NCBI RefSeq assembly: GCF_029873635.1
Contig: NC_080421.1
Location: 558,001 to 622,000, forward strand
Source: Malania oleifera
Taxonomy: Eukaryota > Streptophyta > Magnoliopsida > Santalales > Ximeniaceae
Direction of reading: 5' to 3'
DNA length: 64,000 bases
The notes beneath the pieces were generated by a model, which worked only from the letters and a program-made list of their open reading frames with translations, did no database searches and had not been told where the DNA came from. The translations under genes were made by a program, and so were the position numbers. Shown in pieces: positions 1-60,480 of this stretch (position 1 is the stretch's first letter; each line of letters begins with the position of its first letter).

Positions 1-613
1 AGAAAGATGACCTTTTTTTTAACATATTTAGCCTTAAAAAATCACGTCCATAAATTATCCATTTTCAATAAACGCCAAACAAACTTCATATGAAGAGATC
101 TCTGCACCTCCTCAAAATCTCTAATTCCCAAACCTCATTCCAACTGAGGAACGCATAAATTTTTTCAAGCCTGCCATATATGCTTAAATTTTCCATTTTC
201 CTCTCCTCAAAAGAACGATGATAAAATAGAGTTTACCTTCTTCAAGGTAGAGCAAGGAACATCAAGCACAACCAGTAAATGAGATGGTATAGATGACTAA
301 ACATGTTTCAACCAAATTAACCTACCACCTTGCGACAAAATCTTAAGCTTCCAACTTGCTACCTTTGATTGGATTTTATTCACCAAAGGATCTAAAGTCC
401 TTGCTTTAAGTCGACCAGACACAAGCGGAACTCCCAAGTATGTTGTAGGAAAGGATCCTTCAAGAAAACCCGAGGTCCTCATAATCTCACTATGCCTTGA
501 AATATTGATGAGCTTATAAAAAAACACAACATATTTCTCTTTGTTAATATGTTGACCTGACCATTTTTCGTACATCTCAAGAGTCTTCAACAAATTTCGA
601 AAGGACCTTGCAT
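1..613 (-). pseudogene. LINE ORF2 reverse transcriptase, second part
   Basis: Continues the reverse transcriptase beyond the hAT insertion. The frame at 297-613 reads SFRNLLKTLEMYEKWSGQ, then NKEKYVVFF and TTYLGVPLVSGR, the usual thumb-region signature (YLGVPL) of plant L1 elements, then KVASWKLKILSQGGR. The region 1-296 continues with weaker similarity (a degraded RT C-terminus) and runs off the window. Confidence 0.75.
606..613. repeat. hAT target-site duplication, left
   Basis: CCTTGCAT, identical to 1937-1944. The 8-bp length fits hAT transposase. Confidence 0.93.
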
Positions 614-1039
614 TAGGGGTGAGCAAACGGTCGGTTAGGCCAAATTCGGTTAATTAACCGAAATTTTTGGTTAAAGAATACTGTTAACCGAACCGATTGA
701 ATTGCTGAGCCGAATCGAACTAAACCCGACCGAATTTTTTTTTGGGTAATTCGATTAACTGAATTTAACCGAAAGGCAGGTTTATGTATTTGATAAGGCT
801 TGGAAAGAAGCTCTTCAAAGAATGCTCGGCATAAAATCTTGCAGCACTATCCTCATCAAGTTGAACTTGATTTCCTTGATAATTTCAAAGCCAGAATAAA
901 AAATAACTTTCTTTATCTCATTCGTGTAGTTAATTACCCAATAATCCATCAGGTTTTATCATGGCTAATGTTTTTTCCTTCTCTATACTTCCATTGCTTG
1001 AAGATCTGACAGTGAGAGAGAAGGAAAACAGAAGGAAGA

Positions 1040-1291
1040 AAACCAAAATCAATGGCACGAGCTGATTGAAGCGCAGAGTCATCTCCATTTTTCAAACTCA
1101 GAGAGAGAGAGAGAGATGGGGCACGAGGGGCTAGCGCCGGAGTACATACCCTTCGTCTACATAACGCGCTTCCGGTTTAGCCATGGAGCTGTGTACTCAA
1201 TTACCAGCTCAAATTCTTCTTCCGAGCTGGTGGGTTCTTTCATTTGTGACCCAAAATTTGAATTGAGCTTGTTGAGTTGCTTAGGGTTTTG

Positions 1292-1327
<36 letters not shown>

Positions 1328-1338
1328 ATAGGGAGAGA
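1040..1338 (+). other. Probable captured 5' leader or promoter piece ahead of the L27 sequence
   Basis: Between the subterminal repeats and the L27 start lies sequence unlike the element ends. It has GA-rich microsatellites (about 1100-1115 and 1296-1318) and the motif TTAGGGTTT near 1281-1289. That motif, the telo-box in reverse, is known from promoters and leaders of plant ribosomal protein genes. I infer that the capture included non-coding sequence upstream of RPL27. ORFs across it (for example 1116-1331) run into the GA repeat and look like chance readings. Confidence 0.45.
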
Positions 1339-1753
1339 ATGGTGAAGTTTTTGAAACCAAACAAGGCAGTGGTCCTCCTCCAAGGTCGCTATGCCGGCCG
1401 CAAAGCGGTGATCTTCCGATCGTTCGACGATGGCCCTTGTGACCGTTCATACGGGCACTTTTTGGTTGCCGGGATAGCCAAGTACCCGAAGAAGGTGATC
1501 TGCAAACTGCAAGGACTCTGCCAAGAAGACCGAGAAGAAGTCCCGTGTGAAGGCCTTCATCAAGCTAGTGAATTACAACCACGTTATGCCCACACTGTAC
1601 ACCTTCGACATCGATCTCAAGGACATCGTCACACTCGAAACCCTTCAGTCTTGCAACAAGAAGATCATCGCCACCAAAGAAACCAAGGCCAAGCTCAAGG
1701 AGAGATTCAAGGCCGGCAAAAATGGGTGGTTCTTCACCAAGCTCGGGTTTTGA
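1339..1753 (+). pseudogene. RPL27: 60S ribosomal protein L27 (eL27), captured copy with one frameshift
   Basis: The reading begins [20 protein letters not shown] and ends [15 protein letters not shown], which I recognise as plant eL27, a structural protein of the large cytosolic ribosomal subunit. The region is 415 nt. A 7-bp tandem duplication (CTGCAAA twice, about 1498-1512) shifts the frame after VICK; without it the length would be exactly 135 residues, the family length. No intron is present. Several substitutions sit at normally conserved sites (RP to CD/RS in the SFDDG segment, LRF to LGF at the end). It lies wholly inside a hAT transposon. The frameshift makes a working ribosomal protein unlikely. 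Confidence 0.93.
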
Positions 1754-1936
1754 GTATCCTTATTAAATTGGTTAATCGGTTAACCGAATTAATATTTTCT
1801 ATTCACCGAACCGAAACCCGATTCACCGAAATGTTGGAAGGCATAACCAAACCGACCGAATTGGTTTTTTTAACCAAACCGAACCGACCAATTTTGGTCG
1901 GTTAATTCGGGTTTCCCCGAATTATGCTCACCCCTA

Positions 1937-1944
1937 CCTTGCAT
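1937..1944. repeat. hAT target-site duplication, right
   Basis: CCTTGCAT, identical to 606-613. Confidence 0.93.
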
Positions 1945-3430
1945 CTCCATTAGAAAAAATCAATAAATCATTTGCATAAAGAAGATAAGAGACAATAGGA
2001 GCACCAACAGGATGAAAAAATCTACCAATCTTGCTAGACATATAATTATGTTGTAGCAATCTGGATAGGACTTCTTCCATCAAAATAAAGAGGTGAGGAG
2101 AAAGAGGATCCCTTTGTCGTAATCCCCTCGTTGATTTAAAAAAACCTTTGAAGGTGTCATTAAGCATAATACAGAACCAAGGAGACTGAATACAATTTGT
2201 TATAATCCTGCAAAATTTATCTTCAAAACCAAAAGCCATAAGGATGTCTAAAAGAAAACCCCAGTTAATTCGGTCATAAGCCTTAGCCATATCAATCTTG
2301 AGCATCACATTGCCACTCTGATTTTTCCCGTGGATTGAATGCACCACCTCCTGGGCCAAAGTAATATTTTCAAAAATACTACGCCCTGAAATAAAAGCGA
2401 TATCATCTTATGTAAAACCCTTGTCAACTGAGTCACTAAAATCTTCGAAAAAATTTTATATGCCAAAGAGCACAAACTTATAGGTCTAAACTTATCAAAA
2501 CTCTTTAGATCCAACACTTTAGGAATCAACACAATAAAAGAAGACGAATAGAACTTGGGAAGCACTGTCTCCTTGAAAAACTTCGTCGTTGCTTCAACAA
2601 CATCATCTTTTACAATATCCTAACAAGCCATATAGAAACCGGACCCAAATCCATCAGGACCAAGGGAGCTGTGTTTCGGAATAGAGAAAACCACAGCAAG
2701 AACTTCCTCAATCGTAGGATCCACAGTGAGCATGGAATTTTCCTCTCCAGTTAAGGTTGGTTGAATAAAAGGCTCCAACTCCGCATGAATAACTTCTTGC
2801 TCCTCAGTCAGAAAATTATTGAAGTAATAAATAGCCCCTTGGTGAATTTCCTCTGGAGAAGACAGAACGGAGCCATCTTCCAAGTGCATACTAGTCATCA
2901 TAGATTTTTTCCATCTCTGCTTAACAGAAGCATGGAAAAACCTCGAGATTTGATCTCCTTGAAGAAGCCACTTCTTCTTAGCTTTATGAGCTCAATAGGC
3001 TTCTTCTCTTGTGTCCCATTCCACCAACTCCATTTTGGTACTCAAAAAATCAGCCTCAACGTGCGGGTTGAACTGAGCCTGTAGTTGAAACTCAAAAAAC
3101 TCTAACTTTTCTTCAAGTGCCTGAATATTAAGATTCACCCAGCCGAAGGTCAGTTTATTCCAAGTCTTTAACACATTTTTCAGTTTTTAAAGATTTGCCG
3201 CTAGTTTAAATAAACCACTCGAATTTTCCGGCAGCTTCCACACCTTCTTCACAGAGCCCAAAAAAGAATCGTGAGAACACCGCATATTTTGGAATTTAAA
3301 AGGAGACGGGCTATATGGAACCCGAGGAGCCCACAAATGAACCACCATCAGACAATGATCAGAAGACTTTCTACGCAAATATTTCATATAAGCCGAATGA
3401 AATAAACTCTTAAAAGCAACATTAACCAAC
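1937..3430 (-). pseudogene. LINE ORF2 linker and reverse transcriptase, first part
   Basis: Leftward of the endonuclease, several frames spell a plant L1 ORF2. Visible are the linker, a SLGPDGFGSGFY segment (RT motif 1, near 2620-2680), FYSSSFIVLIPK and FRPISLCSLAYKIFSKIL (motif 2, near 2460-2560), DMAKAYDRINWGF (motif 3, near 2260-2300), LRQRDPLSPHLFIL (motif 4, near 2085-2130), and YANDLLIF in place of the active-site YADD box near 1955-1975. The change of the second box residue to N, together with stops and frame changes, marks an inactive copy. The hAT element interrupts about five codons after the YAND box. Confidence 0.85.
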
Positions 3431-3470: not shown

Positions 3471-4003
3471 CTAGGACATACTATGATCTTGAAATCTCAT
3501 CTCAAGAAGTTTACAGTAATGCAAACAATTATTAAATTCTAACATCACCACCATCGGACGTTGATTACCCCCAATATGTTCAGTATAATTACGGATGACA
3601 TTAAAATCTCCAACCACTAACCATGGAGACTCCCCATCACATAAATTCTGACAATCCTCCCAATGGAGATGTCGCTCTACATGAGAACACTTAGCATAGA
3701 CAAAAGAAACCAAAATTTTCCTAGAATTAAAATGAACCCAACTTGACAAGGCTTGGTCCGAAGAGTGAATGATCTCCACCTGATAACTTTTTTTCCACAA
3801 AATCCAGATTTTCCCTCCCAAATCCTCATTGCAACAGAAATTTGGAAAACCCAAAAAAGAACCTAACCTTGGCATAGCAACCCAATTATGAAGTGGTTCA
3901 AGAATGCAACCACTGCAACATGAAACTTCTGAATAATAGCTTTCATACAACTCCAAGAACGACCTAACCCTCTTATGTTCCACACTAAAATGGTGTCAAT
4001 CAT
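3471..4003 (-). pseudogene. LINE ORF2 endonuclease domain, partial
   Basis: Starts at the ATG at 4001-4003 that overlaps the ORF1 stop. The first residues contain VWNIRGLGR, the usual first motif of L1 AP-endonucleases, and a WLVVGDFNVI segment near 3600 carries the conserved GDFN motif with the catalytic Asp. The frame shifts near 3880-3900, so the domain is no longer continuous. It is followed leftward by the linker and reverse transcriptase of the same ORF2. Confidence 0.8.
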
Positions 4004-12719: not shown

Positions 12720-13382
12720 ATGGCAGCAGTTCTCCAAACCACACTTGTCTACTTCATTTTATTGCATTTATCCAGTGGTATTGTTACTGCCAAAGAAAGG
12801 GAATGGAAGTCTGCTACTGCAACGTACTCCAGGGACGCAGATGATGGCCGGACCAGCACGGGTGATTAAAATTACTTCCCTTTCTTCTCTCTCTCTCTAT
12901 CTGTTTCTCTAGTTGCACTGTGTAAATGTAAGATCCTCTGGCTTTAACTGCACAAAGATATATATAGGATGGGTTGATTAATTATTTTTTCTGCTAATAC
13001 ATATTATTTATGGTGGGTGTTAATTGGTGCTCTTATCCCTATTTTGGTAAATCCTGCTGCAGAAGGTGCTTGTGGTTATGGGGATCTTCACAAGAGTTAC
13101 GGAGAATACAACGCTGGCCTAAGTAGCACGCTATTCAACAGAGGGAGTGCCTGTGGGGGTTGCTTCGAAGTGAGATGCGTTGATCATATCCGATGGTGCC
13201 TGCCCGGGAGCCCTTCTGTTGTTCTCACTGCTACAGATTTCTGTCCCCCAAATTATGGCCTCTCATCCGACTATGGTGGATGGTGCAATTTCCCCCAGAA
13301 ACACTTTGAGATGTCCCAGGCGACCTTTGCTGCTATTGCTCACATAAAAGCTGATATAGTGCCAATTCAATACAGGAGGTGT

Positions 13383-13418
<36 letters not shown>

Positions 13419-13803
13419 TCTATAATATATATATCTAGGTAAAAGTTAAAGAAATTACGTACTGAATTCCATTTTCCCTACCGATTTTTGCAGGGTGGGT
13501 TGCCAGAGAAGAGGGGGGATGAGATTTACAGTGCACGGAAGCAATCAATTCTTTCAAGTCTTAGTAACCAACGTAGGGTCAGATGGAGAAGTGGCTGCAG
13601 TGAAAGTGAAGGGATCAAGAACAGGGTGGATGCCTATGGGTAGGAACTGGGGACAGAACTGGCACTGCAATATCAACCTCCTCGGGCAGCCTATATCTTT
13701 CGAGGTGACCGTCAATGGCGGAAAAACAGTCGCATCCTACAGTGTGGCCCCTGCAGATTGGCGGTTTGGTCAGGCATTTGAAGGAAAACAGTTCCAAAAT
13801 TAA
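12720..13803 (+). CDS. EXPA: Alpha-expansin, secreted cell-wall-loosening protein (three exons)
   Basis: Exons 12720-12861, 13063-13378 and 13494-13803 join in phase (phases 1 and 2, GT-AG introns of 201 and 115 bp) into 255 residues, the usual expansin length. Residues 1-24 form a signal peptide, so the product should go to the cell wall, where expansins loosen cellulose-xyloglucan contacts without hydrolysis. Domain 1 (double-psi barrel) shows GACGYGD at 50-55, CGGCFEVRC at 78-86, TATDFCPPN and GGWCNFP, with six or more Cys. Domain 2 ends with [16 protein letters not shown] and FEGKQFQN. The normally conserved HFD triad is HFE (128-130), so it is a divergent alpha-expansin, resembling the EXPA13/EXPA20 types by recollection. 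Upstream lies AT-rich DNA; no operon-like neighbours. Confidence 0.93.
13384..13417. repeat. (GT)n microsatellite at the 5' end of expansin intron 2
   Basis: About 17 GT units begin five bases after the exon 2 donor (13379) and take up nearly a third of the 115-bp intron. Confidence 0.95.
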
Positions 13804-31761: not shown

Positions 31762-34700
31762 GTGAGTCCTTCCCTGCCCCCATTCCCATATGATTCTCTC
31801 TTTCTTTTGTTTTTTGTCTTTTTTTAAATGTTTCTTCTTTGTTTGCATACTGCTTGATAATCATAAACTGGAAACCCTTCGCTATAGCTTTTCCCCCATT
31901 TTTGCCTCTGTTACACCCCCGCCCCCCTCTGCCCTGCCTCGTGTTTGTTTTGAGAATTGGGGGGGGGGGGGAGTGGGGAGAGGAGGTGATGGGGGTGAGA
32001 TCGTGAGAGGCTTGAGTGAGTACAGTTTATTAGAAATAACCAAGGGCCATGATACTAATTCTTAGAGCGGACAAGCATGCAAACCAAGATACTGTTAGGA
32101 AATTGAATGGGTAGGAACAATATTGTACAGCTAAAATAAAAATTTAGAAAATAGGAATCGGCACCAAGATTTAGGTGAAAAATTTCCAAAAAAATTGAGG
32201 AAAAAATCACGGATAAGGCTAGAAGGAATTCACTATAAAATTGGGATGATACAACTTCTCTTTAATTACAAGAAGAGAACAATGATATCTCTTTCTTGAA
32301 TTAGGAGTATACAAATCTCTCTAATTATAATAGGAGAAACTGCATAAAATTGGAGATACATCGGGTTATGTATTTGAACAACAAGCATGTCCTTTAAATA
32401 GGCATTCGGGCATACTCAAAGTACTTCATGTGGGCTTCTCATCCACAGCATAGGTTGGCTTGGGCTGGAGATCGGCATGGGCTCTTGTGACACATTTATT
32501 GCATAAAACAAAACGGCTTCACATGCAGGAATGGTATGGTGCGGCTGCAATTTCACTTGGATGGTATGGAGCATATGACATAGGATGGGCAACATTTATT
32601 TATTGCTGCAAGTCTCCAAGAGAGGATGGGCATGCAGTACATGGGCTCCTGTGCATGCAGGCCTTCACATGGGCCGCCCTCAGACCTGCTCCATCAACCC
32701 ACATTTATTATTAAAATAAAGGGGCTTTTCTTTCACATTCTCCCACTTAAAGCCACTTTCAAACATATTTTCATCATTTTGAGTCTTGCCAGTTTTATGT
32801 CACTTACTTTTTTGTAAGGCAATAAGAGGATCTACACCATATGAACTTGTCAGCGTTCATTGGTTTTGTCATAACATATGCTAGGTTGTCTTTGGTGTGA
32901 ATCTTTTGCAAGTTAACATTTCCTTCCTCCACAACTTCTCGAACGAAGTGATACTGTACTCCGATGTATTTTGTCATGGAATGAAAAGCTAAATTCCTTG
33001 CAATATGCAAGGCATTCTGATTGTCACAATACAAAAGAGTCCTCTCTTGCGTGTGCCCGAGTTCTTCCATTAACCTTTTAATCCAGATTGTCTCCTTGCA
33101 AGCCTGAGTAGCTGCCATGTATTCGGCTTCAGTTGTTGACAATGCCACAACAATATGCAACTTTGATACCCGGCTTACTGCGCCTCCTACAAGAGTAAAT
33201 GCATAACCTATAGTGGATTTTCTTTTGTCAAAATCACCTGCAAAATCTAAATCAACATATTCCCTAATAGTGAATTTTGATCCTTCGTAACATAATGCAG
33301 CATCTAAGGTCCCTTTGATGTATCTTAGGACCCTCTGCACAACATTCCAATGCTCTCTACCAGGATTTGCCATGAACCGACTGACTGCACTGATTTCCTG
33401 AGCAATATCTAGTCTCGTACATATCATAGCATACATTAGGTTTTACACTGCTGATGTGTATGGCACTCGAGACATTTCCATCCTCTCTGCTTCATTGTTA
33501 TGACACATATATGAGGATAATTTATAATTGACAGGAAGTGGGGTAGAAATTGGCTTATAATCTTGCATGTTGAAGCATCGCAAGAATTTTTTCAAATAAT
33601 TCTTTTGAGAAAGCCAAATCTTTTTTTCTTTTCTGTCTTGGTTAGTTTGCATCCCTAAAATCTTGTTTGCTGTTCCCAAATTCTTCATATCAAACTCTCT
33701 AGCCAATTGTGCCTTCAATTCTTGGTCTCTTTCTTTGTTGGGACCTACAACCAACATATCATCCACATACAACAACAAAATAATGAAATCATTATTACCA
33801 AACCTTTTGTAGTACGTACAATGGTCTAAACTGAGTCTGTTGTATCTGAGGCTAATTATGAAGGAATCAAATCTTTGTACCAACATCTTGGTGCCTGCTT
33901 TAAGTCGTACAGAGATTTAGTTAACCTGCAAACCAAATTTTCTTTTTCTTTTTCTTCAAAACCTTCTGGTTGGAGCATGAAAATCTCTTCTTCAATTTCT
34001 CCATGAAGAAAGACAGTTTTCACATCTAACTACTCTAAATCTAAATTAAACACAACACACATAGCCAATACAGTTCTGATAGTAGTAAGTCTAACAACTG
34101 GAGAAAATATCTCATTAAAATCAATACCTTCTTTTTGAGCATACCCTTTCACTACCAGTCTTGCGTGATATCACTCCACTTGATCATTGCCATCACGCTT
34201 GATCTTATAACCCATTTATTTCCAATGGCTTTACGTCCGTGTGGTAATGGAACAAGCTCCCATGTATTATTTTTGTACAGGGCTTCAATTTCTTCCTACA
34301 TTGCTGTCATCCACAAAGAAACATCAGTGCTACTAATCGCCTCATGTATTATTTTTGTACAGGGCTTCAATTTCTTCCTGCATTGCTGTCATCCACAAAG
34401 AAACATTAGTGCTACTAATAGCCTCATGGAAAGTTGATGACTCTCCATCTTCTGTTAGAAGACAATATGCAATATTGTTTATCATGACATAATCTGAGTG
34501 CCATGATGGTTTCTTTGTCGCACTTACTGAATGTCGAATTTCTGTATCATTTGTCTCATTTGGTTCTTGTTCCTCACGCTCTGGTGCGGCTTCAAAAGAA
34601 TCTTTCTTTTCTTCTATTTGAACAATAATAGTCGTTTCCGAAGTGTTGTTGTTTTCTTTATTTTGTAGTTCATTTTCTGTAAATATCACACCCCTGCTGA

Positions 34701-37700
34701 CTACGAACTTGCGGGCAGTGGGATCCCACAGGCGATACCCCTTGACTCCGTCAGCATAACCGAAGAATATGCATTTCTTGGACTTTGGGTCCAGTTTAGT
34801 TCTTTCCTGGGTATTATACATTACATATGTAGAACATCCAAATATGTGAAGAGAAGAATACTGGGCTGGCTTACCGGTCCACACCTCCATTGGTGTCTTC
34901 AAACCAATTGCTGTTGACGGTGACCGATTTATCACATAACAAGCGGTTTTGACTACTTCAGTCCAAAATGACTTGGCTAGATCTCTAGTCTTCAACATCA
35001 CTCTAGTTCTCTCCAATAGGGTTTTTTTCATCCGCTTTGCTACACCATTTTGCTGAGGTGTATGTGCAATAGTGAACTGCCTTTGAATACCTTTTTGCTT
35101 GCAAAATGAAATAAAATTGTCGTCTGTATATTCTCCTCCATTATCTGTCCTTAAATACTTGATTCTTTTTTCAGATTCAAGTTTCATCCGAACTTTGAAT
35201 TCTTTAAATACTAGAAACATATTAGACTTCTTCTTAATTGGAAATACCCATAACTTCCTGGAATAACCATCAATAAATGACACAAAATAATTTGCTCCTC
35301 CTAGGGATGCAATTGGTGATTCCCCAACATCTGAGTGAATTAAGTCTAAAATATGTTTGCTCCTGGCAGTAGATCTATCAAATTTTAATTTATGCTGCTT
35401 ACTTGTAATACAGTGCTCACAGAAAGGTAGACTTACTGATTTGAGCCCGGGAAGAAGATTACGATTTGAAAGGATCTTCGAACCACGTTCAGACATGTGG
35501 CCAAGTCTGCGATGACACATTATTGTTGATTCTTCCTGGGTTGATGCAACTAATGCGTCTCCTTGTTGTACAATATTTCCCAGTAGTGTGTATGGATTTG
35601 CCACGATCTTTTTTGCCCATCACTACAAGTACGCCCTTGATGATAACCTTCAAGATCCCTTTTCAATATGGGTCTTGCAGCCGAGGTCATCCAACTGTCC
35701 AAGAGACAATAAATTTTTCTTCAAGCCCTTCTGATGTTGTACCCCTTGAATTTTGCGAATTGTACCGTCGTACATCTCTAGTTTGATATTACCAACACCA
35801 GTGATCTTTAAGGCATGATCATTACCCATGAACACAGATCCCCCTGAAACAATGAATGGAACCAATCTCGGCGAGAGGTCATGTGCCAGGTTGCTCCCGA
35901 ATCCATGATCCATACATCAGTGAGTTTCTTACCACCTTTAGAGATAGTTTCTGCTTCGCTGTACAGGATTTCGCCATCACTAAAGGTACTCGCAGCGCAT
36001 CCTTGAGAAGTTTTCTCCTCAGGAGCTTTCCCTACATTCTTCTTTTTGTGTCGACAATCCTTTGAGATGTGCCCCCTTTTGCCAAAATTGTAGCATTTAA
36101 AATTTTTCTTACTCCCTGACTTTGATCTACCAAGATTTTGACTCCCTCTAGAGCCACATTTTGTTGATCTTCCTTTCGTCATCGGTAGTGCCTCAACTTG
36201 TTGAGAACTAAACGATCTGTCTTTCTTGTTTTTGCATCTGGATTCCTCTTCTAGAACAGCCGCTGCAACATTATCGAAGACTAGATTATCTTACTGAATA
36301 TTATTTATTATGTTGATGATGAGTTGATCATACGAATCTGGTAGACTTTGGAGTAGAAGCTCCACTCATTCGGTTGGCTCAATCTTATGGTGTAATGTTG
36401 TCAGTTGGGAGAACAACGTATTAAGATTGTTGATGTGATCAGTGACCGATGTGGACTCACTCATTCGAAGAGTGTAGATTCGCCTCTTTAATAAGATTTT
36501 ATTGTGAAGTGACTTAATCTCATAGAGTTCTTTCAGCGCATCCCAAATTTCTTTTGCTGACTTCTTCTCCGCAATGCTTGATAACATTGAATTTTCCAAT
36601 ACTAGATGAAGATTGGTCATAACATTGTTATCCATCTCATTTCATTTTTCATTAGTTATCCCTGTTGGTGTGTCTCTAATTGCCGCTAAGCAATTATCCT
36701 TTCTCAAGATTGCCTTCATCTTCAATTTCCAAAGGGAGAAATTACCCTCATTGAACTTCTCAATTACGTACTTTGCTGCCATTGTAGTAGATAAGATTTG
36801 TTTCTCTATTAAATCGGCTCCCGCTTTTTCACCGTGATCAATACCGTATACGTGAATAGTATCATAAATGAATGGAACTATATACTTGAACAAATCTCGT
36901 ATACGTTCATAATCCTGTAAAAGTATCCGGTGACACGTGTGAATAGTAACCCCAACCCAAAGGCCGTAACCTAAGGCTTTGATACCACTGTTAGGAAATT
37001 GAATGGGTAGGAACAATATTGTACAGCTAAAATAAGAAATTAGAAAATAAGAATTGACGCCAAGATTTACATGAAAAACTCCCAAACAAATTGAGGGAAA
37101 AACCACGAGTAAGGCTAGAAGGAATTCACTATAAAATTGGGATGATACAATTTCTCTCTAATTGCAAGAAGAGAACAATGATATCTCTTTCTTGAATTTG
37201 GAGTACACTAATCTCTCTAATTATAATAGGAGAAACTACACAAAATTGGAGATGCTTCGGGTTATGTATTTGAACAACAAACATGCCCTTTAAATAGGCA
37301 TTTGGACATACTCAAAGTACTTCACGCGGGCTTCTCATCCGCAACATAGATTGGCGTGGGCTGGAGATGGGCATGGGCTCCTGTGACACATTTATTGCAT
37401 AAAACAAAATGGCTTCACATGCAGGAATGGTATGGTGCGGCTGCAATTTCACTTGGATGGTATGGAGCATATGACATGGGATGGGCAGCATTTATTTATT
37501 GCTGTAGGTCTCCAAGAGAGGATGGGCATGCAGGATATGGGCTCCTGTGCATGCAGGTCTTCACATGGGCTGCCCTCAAACCTGCTTCATCAACCCACAT
37601 TTATTATTAAAATAAAGGGGCTTTACTTTCACAGATACAACCAAAACAAAGGAAACCTTTCATTCTCAAACCTCTCTTCTATCAATTTTCGTTTAGCAAG

Positions 37701-43700: not shown

Positions 43701-46700
43701 CATGAGTCGCCGGTGGAAACTTTCCAGCAATTATTTTTGTGGCGAAGGGAGATCAATGAATGGGGAGTACAATGGTGTTGGTGGTGTGATGAGAAATGCA
43801 CAGGAGGATAGGGCTTTCAAAGAGCCAACAGCTGGAGATGTTTTAGCTGGGGCTTGGGGGTTCTTCTGGTGGTTGGTTGGCAATGAAAACTTAAGGGTGA
43901 GGGTTTTTTGTGGGGGTGGGGTTTGCTTTCAACGGGATGGATGGTGTTGCAGGAAGCGGTCTAGAAGGTGGTTTGTGAAAAATGGAGACATGGATGGAAT
44001 TTCAGAAAATGTTCAGAAACTGCAGAGCAACTTTTCATTTTTTTTTTTATTTTTAAAAACTGAAATTCAGAGAGAGAGAGAGAGAGAGAGTTAAAAAACT
44101 GAAGGAGAGAGAAAAGAAGAAAATGGAAGGTTGGAAGAGAGTTGATCGGATCATGGGAGATAATTAAAGAGAAGAAGAAGAAGAAGAAAGAAAAGAGAAA
44201 CAGAGAAGAAGAAAGAGGGCAGAAGGTTGCTGGGCAGCAGAGGATTAGGGACAGAATAGTAGATCAGAACAGAGAAGAGAGGAGGAGAAGAAGAGAAGAA
44301 ATCAGAAATAGAGAGAATTAGGAGAGAAAATTAGAAGAGAAGAAGAAGAGAGTGGGGAGAAGAACAAGGCAGAAGAGAAGAGAGAAGGGGACAATGGTGG
44401 GATTGAAATGGAATATTGGAGATCGAAGTTGGGCTCTGATACCAAATGATGCAGGGACAGCATCAAGGTTCTGCAACCATGGGAGAAAGAGGAGAGGTGG
44501 GAAAGGGAAGGGAGGAGAGAGGACGAACAAACTCATACTTTACACAAATATTACAAACAAGCCCCCAAAATACACATAATATTACACTAATTAAACTAAA
44601 TACATAATAAACTACTAATTAAACCCAACAATCCCTTAACCCAATTCTTCTTAATTATTCTCCAACATGGCTCTTCCCAAGGTCGGTCTTCTTGTCCTCC
44701 ATCATATGGTATTCTTTTTGTTGATGAGAATCCAGATATTATAGTTATTTTTAGAGCATGTTGTTAGGGGCTGACAGTTTGATCTTGGTTAAATGGGAAG
44801 GTGCGATGGCTTCACCTGTCCTTGCCAGGGATTTTTATACTGGGTGTCGAATTACTCAGATTATTCATTCCCAAAAGACAACCAACTACAGTGGATGAGT
44901 CGAGTCCCTTTTTCAGCTATTTACCAATCAGCAGTCGTAGTTACCTCATGCAGTGGATGAGTTGTATTATCTTTTTCAGCTCTTTACCGGTCTGTAGTCG
45001 CAGTGACCTTACACAGTGGATGAGTCGTATCCCTTTTCAGCTCTTTACCAGTTAGTAGTCGTTGTTAGCTCACACAGTTGATGAGTTGTATATCTTTTCA
45101 GCTCTTTGCAAGTCAGTAGTCGTAGTGATCTCACACCGTGGATGAGTCGTATCCATTTTCAGCTCTTTACAAGTCGGTAGTCGTAGTTCCCTCACACAGT
45201 GAATGAGTCATACAGAGTAGAGACTAAATATGTTGCCCTGTAGACAAGTAGTCAATGACGAAAGTTGTCAACGACAATAGTGGGAAGACTTCTTACAGTA
45301 CATCAATGAGGACGTCAATAGAGTGAGTGGGGGAGTTAGGGGCTGGCAGTTTGATCTCGGTTAAATGGGAAGGTGAGATGGCTTCACCTATCCTCGCTAG
45401 GGATTTTTATACTGGGTGTCAAATTACTCTGATGATGTCTTGTGTGGTTGTTTTGTTGATTGAACAAAACAAACAGTTCCACTTGTCATTGAGTATGAAT
45501 GTCGCTTGCCTTCATGATTCAATATTGTTGGAACTAATATTTCGTGATTACGAATGGCTTTCGTAACCTCTCTGGTGCTCATGAATGCAGGTTGGAACGG
45601 TTAGTTGTTGGCTGACTCTGTTGAGGGAGAGCCTCGACGAGTGCCACGTGGCCCCTTGATTGAGTTTAACTTGGGGGTCCATGGCACATGTCCTATAGTT
45701 CAAAGTTCAAACTTCTTCCTTCTTTTTCTTTCTTCCTTCTTTAGAAATCAGTGACTTGAGTAGAAATAATTTTTCATTTCCAAATATAATTTTTCTGTTT
45801 TCTCTTTAATTTTTCATTTCTGAATTTCAGTTTCTTTATCAAGCTTTGAGGTTATGAAAATCAAATTACACATCTTACTGCGTCAAATTTATCATGACCC
45901 TGCTAGTTAACTTGAATGAAATTATCTGACGAATTAAAAGAATTATAAATCAAGTGAAGACTATGAAAGTTTGCAATGAACTAGTTAGTGTTCACATATA
46001 AATGAGGAAGAATTGCATGCTGAGTTTCAAGGATTATCTGACTTTTAATCTAGCCTGGAAGATTTACACTTCATTGGTTCATTTATTGGACAATTCATTC
46101 CTAAACAATGATAGTTTCGTTGTTTCTTTTTGAATGTAGTGTTTAATCTTCTGTGTAAAATTGCCTCAAGTCACCACCAGCAACTGATGAACATGAATTT
46201 TGAATATCTGATGCAAATAATTTTTAAGTGCATTGTTTGGTCTCTCTCTATTCTGGACTAACCTTGATTACCCCAGAATATATTTCAAGAATTTACAGAT
46301 GAGAGTGTGCAGAAGTTGGTAAGAGATGAACGTGATATCATATTTCTGCCGAAGCAATTGTGGTGTTCATTAAATGAAGCGGTTGGTGGTGAAACATGTG
46401 GTGAGGTGGGATGGATGTTAGATAGTGGGCATGCTATCACATCAAGATGTGTTTTCTCAAGCGATGCAAAGTTGAAGGCAAGTCAATGTGTGGATTTTTA
46501 TTTTTGCTCCCTTTTATTTCTAATCAGTGTGCTACTGACCGAATATCTGATGGGAAAATCTGACAATTACTGATGAGACTTTAAAAATGCAAACTTTTTA
46601 ACCTAGCTTCATGCAATGTGAGATATGCATGCGTGTACCACTGACCTCCAAAATCTAGCCTCATTCAATATTTTTATTCAACTTCCTTACTGAATAACTT

Positions 46701-56273: not shown

Positions 56274-59200
56274 AATATGGCAACCATATACCTGGTTGGG
56301 GATGCTAAATTGTGATGGAGAACTAAAAGGAATGATATTCAGCACAATAAGTGTGTCATTAACACTTGGTAGAGGTTGAAATAGGCATTGAAGACCCAAT
56401 TCTACCCAGAAAATGTAGAATACATAGCACGGTGCAAAGTAATGGAATTGCAACAGACCGACTCAATAAGGAGTTATGTACGAGAATATCAGGTCTTGAT
56501 GTTGGACATTACAGACATGACCGAATCAGACAGGCTATTTCATTTTCTTCAGGGTTTGAAGACATGGCTGAAGAATGAAATGCACTGGCAAGGTGCTAGT
56601 GATCTCTCTTCCACCCTCGCCGCTACTGAATGGTTGGATGATTTTTCAGAGAGTTCTAGGAAGCGAAATTTTCCCATGTCCGCCAATAATGACTCCAGGC
56701 CCAATAAAGTGTATAAGCCCACAAATGAGGGAAGGGGCAAAGAGATAAATAGTTCTTGGAAAGATAAAAGAGCGCCCATGACTAGAGAGTGGAGGGGCAG
56801 ACGAACAAGTGGTGGGAAGCGTCGGTTGCCGATCTCATGTTTCCTTTGCATGGGACCACATTGAGTGGTGGAGTGCCTTGAACGAAAGGCGTTGAATGCT
56901 CTAAAGGCCCTTCGAGGGGAAACCAAAACCCCGACAGCAACCCCAGAAGAAAAACAGAATATGGTGGGAGCATTGAGATTTTTGGGGGCATTAGAGCGCC
57001 AAGTAGTTACTAACAAGTCTCAGGAGAAGGGCTTAATGTACGTTGATATACTTTTGAACGAAAAGAAAATCAAGGCCATGATTGATACAGGGGTCACCCA
57101 TAATTTCATTGCTGATTCAGAAGCCCAATGGTTAGAATTACAAGTAGACAAGGATATGGGGAAGTTGAAAGCAGTGAATTCTCAAGCGTTAACCACTGTG
57201 GGAGTGGCACCTAAAGTAGCCTGCTAAATGGGGTCGTGGTCTGGAATAATTGACTTCACCAGGGCACCCCTCGATGACTTTGTTGTGGTATTGGGGATGG
57301 ATTTTCTTAAAGTGACACGCTCAATGCTGATCCCAGTTACGGATTGTCTTGTGATAATGTAAGATACATCTTGTGCGATTCCCGCAGCCTACAACACTTT
57401 CAATGAGAGGAAGTTGCTTTTAGTCCTCCAATTCAAGAAGGGAGTAAAAAGGGGAGAACCTTCTTTCATGGTTCTACCGGTAGTTTCAGAAAATGAAGAA
57501 ATAGGTGAATATCCGGCTGAAATTAAAGAAGTTTTAGAAGAGTTTAAGGAAGTAATCCCAGAGCAGCTACCTAGGGTTTTACCAACTTGACGACAGATTG
57601 GCCATGAAATTGAGCTTTTGCCAGGGGTAAAACCGCCAGCATATGCCCCTTATCAAAGGGCGCCGCCTGAGTTAGCTGAACTTAGGAGGCAGCTAAATGA
57701 TATAATTGCAGCAGGATTCATCGGCCCATCAAAAGCACCTTTTGGGGCTCCAGTGTTATTCCAGAAGAAACAAGATGAAACTTTGCATTTGTGTGTAGAT
57801 TATCAAGCTCTTAATAAGGTGACGGTTCGTAACAAGTACCTCATTCCGTTGATTGCCGATATTTTTGACCAATTAAGTACAACTAAATATTTCACTAAAC
57901 TGGACTTGAGATTGGGATATCATCAAGTGCGCATTGTAGAGGGAGATGAACCTAAGACCACTTGTGTCACTCGGTATGGAGCATTTGAATTCCTTGTCAT
58001 GCCTTTTTGGGTTAATAAATGCACCTACTACCTTTTGTTCTTTAATGAATCAGGTTTTTCGGGACTACCTGGATTAATTTGTAGTCATTTACTTTGATGA
58101 CATAATGGTTTTCAGTGCATCCTTAGCAGAACATAAAGATCACCTTCGCGGGGTTTTTCAAAAACTCCAAGAAAAGCAGTTATATGTAAAAGGGGAGAAG
58201 TGGGCTTTAGCTCAAAAGCGGATTAAATTCTTGGGGTATATCATTGAAGAGGGCCAGATAGGGATGGATTCAGCAAAAGTACAAACCATCAATGAATGGC
58301 GAGCACATATATCCGTTAGAGAACTGCGATCCTTCTTAAGGCTAGCCAACTACTATCGAAAGTTTATAGAGGGGTATTCTAAAAGAGTTGTATCGTTAAC
58401 AAATTGACTGAGGAAGGGGGTACCATGGGGGTGGTCAGAAGAGTGTCAATCAACATTTATTGATTTAAAGGAAAAGATTGTAGGAGATCCTATGTTAATC
58501 CTTCCTGATGTGACAAAACCATTTGAAGTACAAGCGGATGTTTCAGACTTTGCATTAAGGGAAGTTCTTTTGCAGGAAGAGCATCCAGTTGCTTTTGAAA
58601 GTAGAAAATTATCAAGTGTCGAACAGAACTATACAACATAGGAAAATGAGCTTCTCGCGATGGTACATTGTCTCTGGGTATGAAGGCACTATCTCTTGGG
58701 ATCCAAATTTGTGGTAAAAACCGATAATGTGGTAGTTACTCACTCCTTGTCGCAACCAGGACTGACTTCAAAACAAGCCCGTTGGCAAGAGAAGGTAGCT
58801 GAATTTAATTTTAATTTGGATTTTGAATACAAAGCAGGGAAGACGAATGAAGTGGCTGATGCTTTAAGCAGAAAAACCGAAATTGGCAGCATTGAAACTC
58901 ATAAGTCATTTATCAGCTAGTAGGGTGGCGTTACCTTTGAAAGACCTTATCAGGGAACATTTAAGTACAGACCAGCAAGCATAGACATTAAGTAAAATTG
59001 ATAGAAGAAGGGAAGACACGACAATTTTGGGTAGAAGATGGGCAGATACTGACTAAAGGTAGGAGAGTCTACATGTCCAAAGCTGGAAACTTGAGGAAAA
59101 CCTTACTGAAAGAGTGTCATGATACACTGTGGGCTGGTTATCTCGGATGGCGAAGAACTCATGCATTAATTACACAGGGGTACTATTAGCTGAATATGCA

Positions 59201-60480
59201 AGACGATGTGATGAGTTATACCAAAACTTGCTTGATCTGTTAACAAGATAAGGTAGAAAAAAAGAAGACCTCAGGTTTGTTGGAGCCATTGCTAGTTCCT
59301 GCAAGGCCGTAAGAGAGTGTCTCTTTGGACTTCATTTCCTCATTGCCAAAAGTAAAGGAGTATGACACGATTTTGGTAGTGATTGATCGATTTTCAAGGT
59401 ATGCAACTTTCGTACCAGTCTCAAAGCCATGTTCAGCAGAAAAGACAGTTCAATTATTCTTCAAGCATGTGGTGAAATATTGGGGTGTTCCAGAAAGCCT
59501 AATCAGTGATAGGGATGTTAGCTTCACTAGGGGTTTTTGGAAAGAACTCTTTCGCTTGGTGGGTTCAAACCTTAATCTGTCCACCAGCTACCACCCACAA
59601 ATAGATGGTCAAACCGAACGTTTTAATGGGACGCTGGAAGAATACTTGCGACATTTTGTTAACTCAAATAAGAAGAATTGGGTTCCTTTACTAGACACGG
59701 CACAATTCTGTTTTAACTCTACGAAATCTTCTGCGATTAATAAAAACCCTTTTGAAATTATGACAGGTCAACAACTGACTCTCCCGCACACTCTGGATGG
59801 TCCATACAAAGGAAATGCCCGAAAGCATACCAATTCACAAAGAATTGGTTGCAAAATATCGAAGTCACTCGACCTCAGTTAGAAAAAGCATCGAAGCGCA
59901 TAAAGAAATGGGCTGACAAAAGGAGACGACCACAACAATTTGAAACTAGAGATCTGGTTCTTGTAAAAGTGTTGCCAAAGACATTTCGATTTCTTCGTGG
60001 CAAGGATAAAAGGCTTTTACGCCGTTACAAAGGTCCAATAAAAGTGATTGAGAAGGTGGGGCATGCATCTTATCAGCTTGAACAACCAAAGTGGATGAAA
60101 AGCCACAGATGACCAGTCCATCTCGTGTTTCATGTAAGCAACCTAAAGTCATTCCACACAAATATAGCAAATCCGCACCGACAAAAGATAAGGAGATCAA
60201 CAATATCTAGAAAGCAACCTATAAAAAAGATGTTAAGGAGATCATTGTAGACAGAGTCGTCAATGCAGATGGTTGTCAACAACAACAATATCTGGTTTAG
60301 TGGATGGGGTTGGGAGAAGAAGAGAACTATTGGGAAAAGGCAGAAAACCTTCAACATGTCATACTAAAGATTGAAGATTTTAGAAATTCAAAGACAACGA
60401 CATCAACTTCAACATTAGTAGAGTGAGGAGGCCTTCTACAACACATCGACGAGAACGTCGATAAGATGAGTGAGGGAGGA

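Follow-up and report, generated by a model that had tools for sequence, protein, structure and literature searches.

Introduction

Pack-MULEs, in which gene pieces lie between the ends of a DNA transposon as in the element described here, belong to the Mutator superfamily and generate 9-bp target site duplications (TSDs), unlike hAT elements. How Pack-type elements pick up genes is unsettled, and mobilisation of neighbouring insertions, gap filling and template switching have been proposed. Pack-hATs and other Pack-TYPE elements are known in maize and rice (PMC8903248), and the view of the original prediction that Pack-type hATs are described less often could not be upheld, as many have already been described in maize, rice and animals. 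Like the element studied here, those of PMC8903248 are non-autonomous hATs with 8-bp TSDs and gene pieces, which there come from more than one locus and were gained stepwise; that study explains capture by the mobilisation of neighbouring insertions, whereas a spliced piece and repair-like joints are found here, and none of the terms intron, retro and cDNA occurs in its main text. The Hatvine-6 transduplications of grapevine (PMC2528002) also combine shared ends with an interior that varies and corresponds to introns and exons of genes; unlike the present element, they share transposase coding sequence, and no spliced piece is described in the accessible part of that paper. Animal Pack-TIRs, including Pack-hAT-N8_XT (PMC8277862), resemble the present family: template switching at microhomologies has been proposed for them, and one multi-copy Pack-hAT has separate TSDs. 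The same paper reports ARF6 as a retrogene found in MER20, its authors also allowing for repeated retroposition, and its pipeline treats captures without introns from multi-exon parents as retroduplicates and removes them, a step that the present case would not have survived. In RNA-templated double-strand break repair (PMC12065846), a spliced mRNA template leaves an exact intron deletion, as here; that work concerns human cells and a transcript matching the break site, whereas an unrelated gene and a plant DNA transposon would be involved here.

No report of spliced cargo in a plant Pack-hAT was found among the papers listed by full-text searches of the open-licence literature. What sets the present case apart is such cargo in a multi-copy Pack-hAT family with surviving stages, Pack-hATs themselves being known. 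Here the stages survive side by side in one genome, and donors, empty sites and relatives with transposase are available as well, so that both the order of events and the joints can be read.

Structure and insertion site of the element

The window, by which we mean the whole analysed stretch of 64,000 nt of Malania oleifera DNA, contains at positions 614-1936 a non-autonomous hAT transposon, bounded by a perfect pair of 12-bp terminal inverted repeats (TIRs) and flanked by a perfect 8-bp TSD (8/8), the length typical of hAT elements. The features of this region are as follows:

300..2407, minus strand: LINE reverse-transcriptase open reading frame (ORF) split by the element (300-605 and 1937-2407), recognised by an RVT_1 match and an open empty-site joint
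606..613, no strand: left TSD copy, 8 bp, CCTTGCAT
614..625, plus strand: left TIR, 12 bp, TAGGGGTGAGCA
614..781, plus strand: left (5') element end with AACCGA/TCGGTT repeats
782..1210, minus strand: spliced 5' part of a nucleoside diphosphate kinase (NDPK) gene (part of exon 2, 782-1005; join, 1005/1006; exon 1 and leader, 1006-1210)
1211..1280, plus strand: segment X, an older family interior also present in copies without L27 or NDPK
1278..1759, plus strand: eL27 piece (5'UTR with TAGGGTTT at 1282; coding region 1339-1753; 6 nt past the stop)
1760..1936, plus strand: right (3') element end with AACCGA/TCGGTT repeats
1925..1936, minus strand: right TIR, 12 bp, partner of TAGGGGTGAGCA
1937..1944, no strand: right TSD copy, CCTTGCAT

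TIRs of hAT elements start with the consensus (T/C)A(A/G)NG, to which TAGGGGTGAGCA conforms, and the pair is perfect over its 12 bp. Four pairs of 12-bp TIRs with 8-bp TSDs less than 10 kb apart occur in the window, the other three being AT-repeat-like, and 0 were obtained in 100 dinucleotide shuffles of the window. The AACCGA/TCGGTT motif was detected 13 times in the 346 terminal bases of the element (mean of 0.7 and maximum of 4 in 1000 shuffles), 0 times in its 977-bp core, and at most twice per sampled 346-bp stretch elsewhere in the window. No transposase ORF was seen within 614-1936. The original prediction, which had described a hAT element with 12-bp TIRs, an 8-bp TSD, subterminal repeats and no transposase inside, is therefore borne out on these points.

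The element lies in a LINE, whose right part (1937-2407) matches RVT_1 at 1.7e-17 in Pfam, the left part (300-605) alone giving 0 Pfam matches. Once the element and one TSD copy are removed in silico, the LINE ORF is free of stops across the joint. A genome search with the joined flanks yielded at least 40 matches (best 40 of 68 candidates), and at least 39 other LINE copies span the joint without an insert, providing the empty sites that had been proposed for comparison; the 40th match is the right flank of the window itself.

Captured eL27 and its donor

Positions 1339-1753 match Ribosomal_L27e in Pfam at 2.5e-28, and the two halves of the eL27 sequence match eL27 chains in the PDB at 1.8e-34 and 1e-24, respectively. 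The reading frame is broken by a 7-bp near-duplication at about 1500-1513. A functional eL27 in the window was rejected, since the sequence is frame-broken and differs at 16 of 98 invariant positions (4/39 and 12/59 in the two halves); when each of five other eL27 chains per half was left out in turn as a control, the differences ranged from 0 to 8. These comparison chains are presumed to be of plant origin. Among aligned copies of the element (L009-L024), the near-duplication measures 6 or 7 bp in most and is absent from L021 and L024; it may recall a hAT excision footprint (8-bp duplication with altered middle).

The closest L27 gene found, L027 on contig C5, is 88% identical to the captured stretch 1278-1759, which begins in the 5'UTR and runs 6 nt beyond the stop. 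This agrees with the earlier description of an eL27 coding sequence plus probable leader at full length save for a 7-bp duplication, and L027 provides the donor locus whose search had been suggested. This donor consists of a single exon, uninterrupted over the captured stretch, and rice RPL27.3 has likewise been reported to lack introns (PMC4995216, accessible part). Because the donor stretch has no intron, the sequence is compatible with entry of eL27 by way of either DNA or RNA. No L27 relatives were confirmed in viral_contigs and genome_contigs.

The joints of eL27 can be read in L024, the copy that bears eL27 with its 3'UTR. The insertion point is GTTGAGTTGC, and two copies without L27 (L035 and L036) show the uninterrupted site GTTGAGTTGCATGC where L024 has the insert. 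At the right joint, 8 bases are common to the donor 3'UTR (TTTTGAGTTG) and the element, and at the left joint 3 bases (TGC) are shared. These joints would fit template switching in repair. Because the joints share donor and element bases, a 9-bp direct repeat mimicking a target duplication flanks the insert in L024. The original prediction had reasoned that poly-A and target duplications around L27 would point to a retrocopy landed in the transposon. The 3'UTR retained in L024 has no poly-A, and the 9-bp repeat is explained by TTTTGAGTTG in the donor 3'UTR; accordingly, eL27 carries neither the poly-A nor the TSD of its own that mark a processed pseudogene, and a LINE retrocopy of eL27 in the element was rejected.

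Spliced NDPK piece

The content of the element as first described was incomplete: the whole coding region of eL27 was indeed captured, but a second gene piece, the spliced NDPK sequence at 782-1210, had been missed. Read on the minus strand, this segment codes for the beginning of a nucleoside diphosphate kinase preceded by a hydrophobic leader, with the start codon at 1088-1086; its edge at 782 was taken from sister copies, the alignment of the window's own copy beginning at 784. Alone, 780-860 matches the NDK profile at 4.7e-4, below the curated cut-off, and the first NDPK piece gives 0 matches, whereas the pieces joined by the letter X at two frame breaks match NDK at 4.6e-11 over profile positions 1-65 of 135. 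Among the best PDB matches, several bear the names NME5 or NDPK 6/7. The captured gene may be NDPK5-like (group II, plant type IV). Type-IV NDPKs of plants that carry an ER retention signal have been described (PMC13120501, accessible part); the captured piece has the N-terminal hydrophobic leader and ends before the C-terminus, where such a signal would lie. The available parts of papers retrieved for TAGGGGTG, NDPK5 and NDPK gene structure (including PMC2777172, PMC11203525 and PMC2631504) contributed nothing that was used here. An ORF at 1116-1286 is mostly the NDPK leader read backwards, and a coding meaning for it was rejected (it has no Pfam match, and the longer frame has none in the PDB).

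The sole NDPK donor found is one gene on contig C9 (L026), 95% identical in exon 2 and 91% in exon 1. In this locus, exon 1 occupies 3681-3889 and exon 2 starts from 4687, the intron between them being 797 bp long (GTGAGC...AAATAG), and the reading frame is maintained through the exon junction and on into the NDK domain. In the element, these exons abut exactly: three registers fit (AG is common to both sides), one of which is GT-AG, and the intron is missing at the exact join in all 11 element copies that span the site. Searched against the genome, the intron gave 1 match from 1 candidate; being single-copy, it is therefore no recently inserted repeat. As the piece lacks the intron of its parent, it very probably derives from messenger RNA and not from the DNA of the gene, judging from sequence comparison.

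The piece starts 43 nt after a TATA motif of the donor, which only suggests that it may begin at the 5' end of the mRNA, i.e., the transcription start. It ends about 4 nt short of the inferred exon 2 end and is thus 3'-truncated and without poly-A. No target duplication was found around it, and about 38 bp of the element have been replaced; exact intron loss is the one mark of a processed pseudogene that it displays, poly-A and a TSD of its own being absent. At its joints, where these ~38 bp of the element are gone, at most 1-2 bases are shared, a pattern that would fit the insertion of an RNA copy at a break by end joining.

No free NDPK retrocopy was seen in the assembly by either DNA or protein search. 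With the piece as DNA (14/14 candidates scored), the 14 matches comprise 11 element copies, a remnant of 55 bp on contig C13 and the two donor exons; with exon 2 as protein (15/15 candidates scored), the 9 matches are the donor and 8 element copies. Joint capture of NDPK and L27 as head-to-head neighbour genes was also considered and rejected, as the donors lie on different contigs (C9 vs C5) and six L27 copies lack NDPK.

Family copies and stages

A search of the host genome (1.49 Gb, 510 contigs) with the element gave at least 74 matches (best 40 of 2293 candidates scored) and revealed forms both with and without L27, for which the original prediction had proposed to search. For copy comparison, 35 loci were fetched by place (L048 gave no match and L049 was left out). 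Both ends are present in 32 of the 35 loci, L019 and L031 lacking one end; among the two-ended copies, TSD agreement is 8/8 in 19, 7/8 in nine and 6/8 in three, L020 having 1/8 as called. Seven full-length copies, including that of the window, occupy different places with different flanking duplications, indicating that the element moved as a unit after capture. The copies can be arranged in the following stages, b forming one branch from a and c to f another:

Stage a: segment X only, e.g., L051, 787 bp, TSD 8/8
Stage b: X and a piece of a PLAT-domain gene (L035, L036, L058, L059)
Stage c: X and eL27 with its 3'UTR, without PLAT (L024)
Stage d: deletion running from the L27 3'UTR up to the 3' end (L018, L020, L021, L022)
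Stage e: spliced NDPK in place of ~38 bp, and a 16-bp deletion (window, L009-L014)
Stage f: most of NDPK exon 2 lost (L015, L016, L017, L023) or most of the piece (L019)

The likely donor of the PLAT piece is L050 on contig C7 (86%), and the Pfam match of the piece is weak (0.0022, below the cut-off). In the sister elements that carry it, this piece retains 35 bases of the inferred donor intron and therefore came from DNA; thus RNA is not the sole acquisition route in this hAT family. One family consequently combines a DNA-derived PLAT piece, a microhomology-joined eL27 piece and a putatively RNA-derived NDPK piece. Being non-autonomous, bounded by TIRs and loaded with gene pieces whose donors lie elsewhere and outside such an element, it is of the Pack-TYPE kind. 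No element ends were detected near the donors in the fetched 8.0 kb (NDPK, L026) and 5.5 kb (L27, L027). The original reading of the locus as gene capture by a Pack-type hAT holds in this respect; that the element belongs to a multi-copy stepwise series with a probably RNA-derived piece goes beyond it.

At least 18 element copies bear L27, a lower bound because the tally of L27 loci was taken from the whole-element genome search (best 40 of 2293 candidates). In the L27 tree, one branch separates these 18 copies from the four L27 loci (support 92/90, recovered in 88% of 200 bootstrap trees), of which L027 is the nearest, in line with the earlier view that the element took up eL27 and carried it along. 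Inside the element group the tree is star-like, with the bootstrap not settled. As labelled, copies with full NDPK do not form one group (4 changes; 2 forced by the starred branches); in this labelling, L019, which has an NDPK remnant, was scored as L27-only, and partial copies were labelled apart. The forced change comes from L012 with L019, whose remnant the label ignored. A single origin of the NDPK piece, which appears probable, rests on the shared joints, splice join and deletion and not on the L27 tree. The 16-bp deletion is present in 11 of 11 aligned NDPK-bearing copies vs none of four aligned L27-only copies. Copies without L27 also contain the ~38-bp sequence or one closely resembling it, and its absence is therefore the derived state.

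In one further locus (L025, C4:20490626-20493022), an L27-bearing copy is nested in a copy of the same family, with the inner ends near positions 479 and 1293 of the latter; the inner copy is deleted further back than the stage d copies. In a second lineage with the same ends, the interiors are different, measure about 520-690 bp and fall into related groups (L033, L034, L037-L040, L042-L044, L046, L047), compared among themselves only.

We also examined relatives with transposase. The hAT dimerisation domain (PF05699) gave at least 150 matches in the genome (best 150 of 1711 candidates), and the family 5' end was detected at 7 of 30 PF05699 loci fetched, six of which were extended to 9 kb. 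Both ends are present in L090 (4908 bp, TSD 7/8), L093 (4909 bp, 8/8) and L094 (4563 bp, 8/8); by similarity, both ends are also recognisable in L092 and L095, and L091 has the 5' end only. The first three are presumably autonomous-type hATs (4563-4909 bp) and may be a candidate source of transposase.

Proposed history and alternatives

The ends and TSDs, donors, splice join, nested forms, differing TSDs and same-end relatives with transposase are observed, and on them we propose, with a probability of about 0.86, that this is a Pack-type hAT built stepwise, which took up eL27 by template switching, lost part of its interior, received spliced NDPK and was spread in trans. In this history, an element with only its own interior would have gained eL27 when repair switched template at short shared sequences, and a deletion would then have removed part of the interior of the eL27-bearing form. 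The 5' part of NDPK may subsequently have entered antisense from a spliced mRNA or its cDNA, with loss of ~38 bp of the element. Forms of each stage would have spread by cut-and-paste insertion, for which autonomous-type hATs with the same ends could have supplied transposase in trans. A double-strand break inside the element was the likely entry point, and the template was probably RNA or cDNA at the element itself, not a retrocopy made elsewhere and since lost. We consider it slightly better than an even bet that a plant DNA transposon was repaired at an internal break with a spliced mRNA (or its cDNA) as template and then spread the acquired piece. RNA would in that case be a second Pack-type route, overlooked in part because one published survey sets intronless captures aside as retrocopies.

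The splice join could also be accounted for if retrotransposon enzymes had made an NDPK processed pseudogene elsewhere, whose 5' part was captured as DNA by the hAT element before the retrocopy was lost, and DNA capture is indeed known in this family from the PLAT piece with its intron bases. However, no free retrocopy is present in the assembly among all candidates scored (14/14 and 15/15). Retrocopies are usually 5'-truncated, whereas the NDPK piece extends far in the 5' direction and is missing its 3' end and poly-A, so that we regard this course of events as unlikely, yet a serious contender. Direct insertion of a retrocopy into the hAT element by LINE-type target-primed reverse transcription is improbable: the piece is spliced and LINEs are present, but there is no target duplication or poly-A, and ~38 bp of the target were lost. 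An endonuclease-independent variant of LINE activity at a break would be close to the explanation we prefer, namely the copying of spliced RNA during repair.

Two further accounts dispense with RNA. If all pieces came from genomic DNA, the NDPK donor must have gained its intron after the capture; the intron evidence does come from one genome, but the intron is single-copy, 797 bp long, GT-AG and located at an in-frame exon joint, and a recent gain of such an intron would be rare, which makes this very improbable. Still harder to credit is that a fusion of neighbouring hAT insertions enclosed the genes, according to the model of PMC8903248 as far as accessible. This route has been proposed for Pack-TYPE elements and one nested copy (L025) exists, but a spliced piece cannot arise by enclosing a gene; moreover, copies from before and after the gains of L27 and NDPK share ends and interior, the pieces lying inside at simple joints, and no element ends were detected beside the L27 donor within 5.5 kb.

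With regard to the host, the broken gene pieces probably do nothing at present and are best seen as passengers, to judge from their sequences, although antisense effects on NDPK or L27 genes are possible. Should RNA serve as a template more generally, a kind of gene movement in which spliced copies travel on cut-and-paste transposons would have escaped the surveys from which intronless cargo is filtered out.

Other features of the window

Scans of the window for tRNA genes and Rfam families gave nothing. An expansin-like gene lies at 12978-13800 on the plus strand, with a DPBB_1 match at 7.1e-19 for 12978-13439 and a second ORF (13450-13800) assigned by eye. Broken pieces of a Gypsy-like gag, reverse transcriptase and integrase were recognised by eye at 56385-60109 (plus strand), the integrase match being below the cut-off. 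A Copia-type retrotransposon is located at 32091-37633, its integrase-type matches (34345-35619, minus strand) lying between two 647-bp direct repeats that are 92% alike and look like LTRs. A tandem array at 44888-45209 consists of 5.2 copies of a 61-bp unit and adjoins other repeated blocks.
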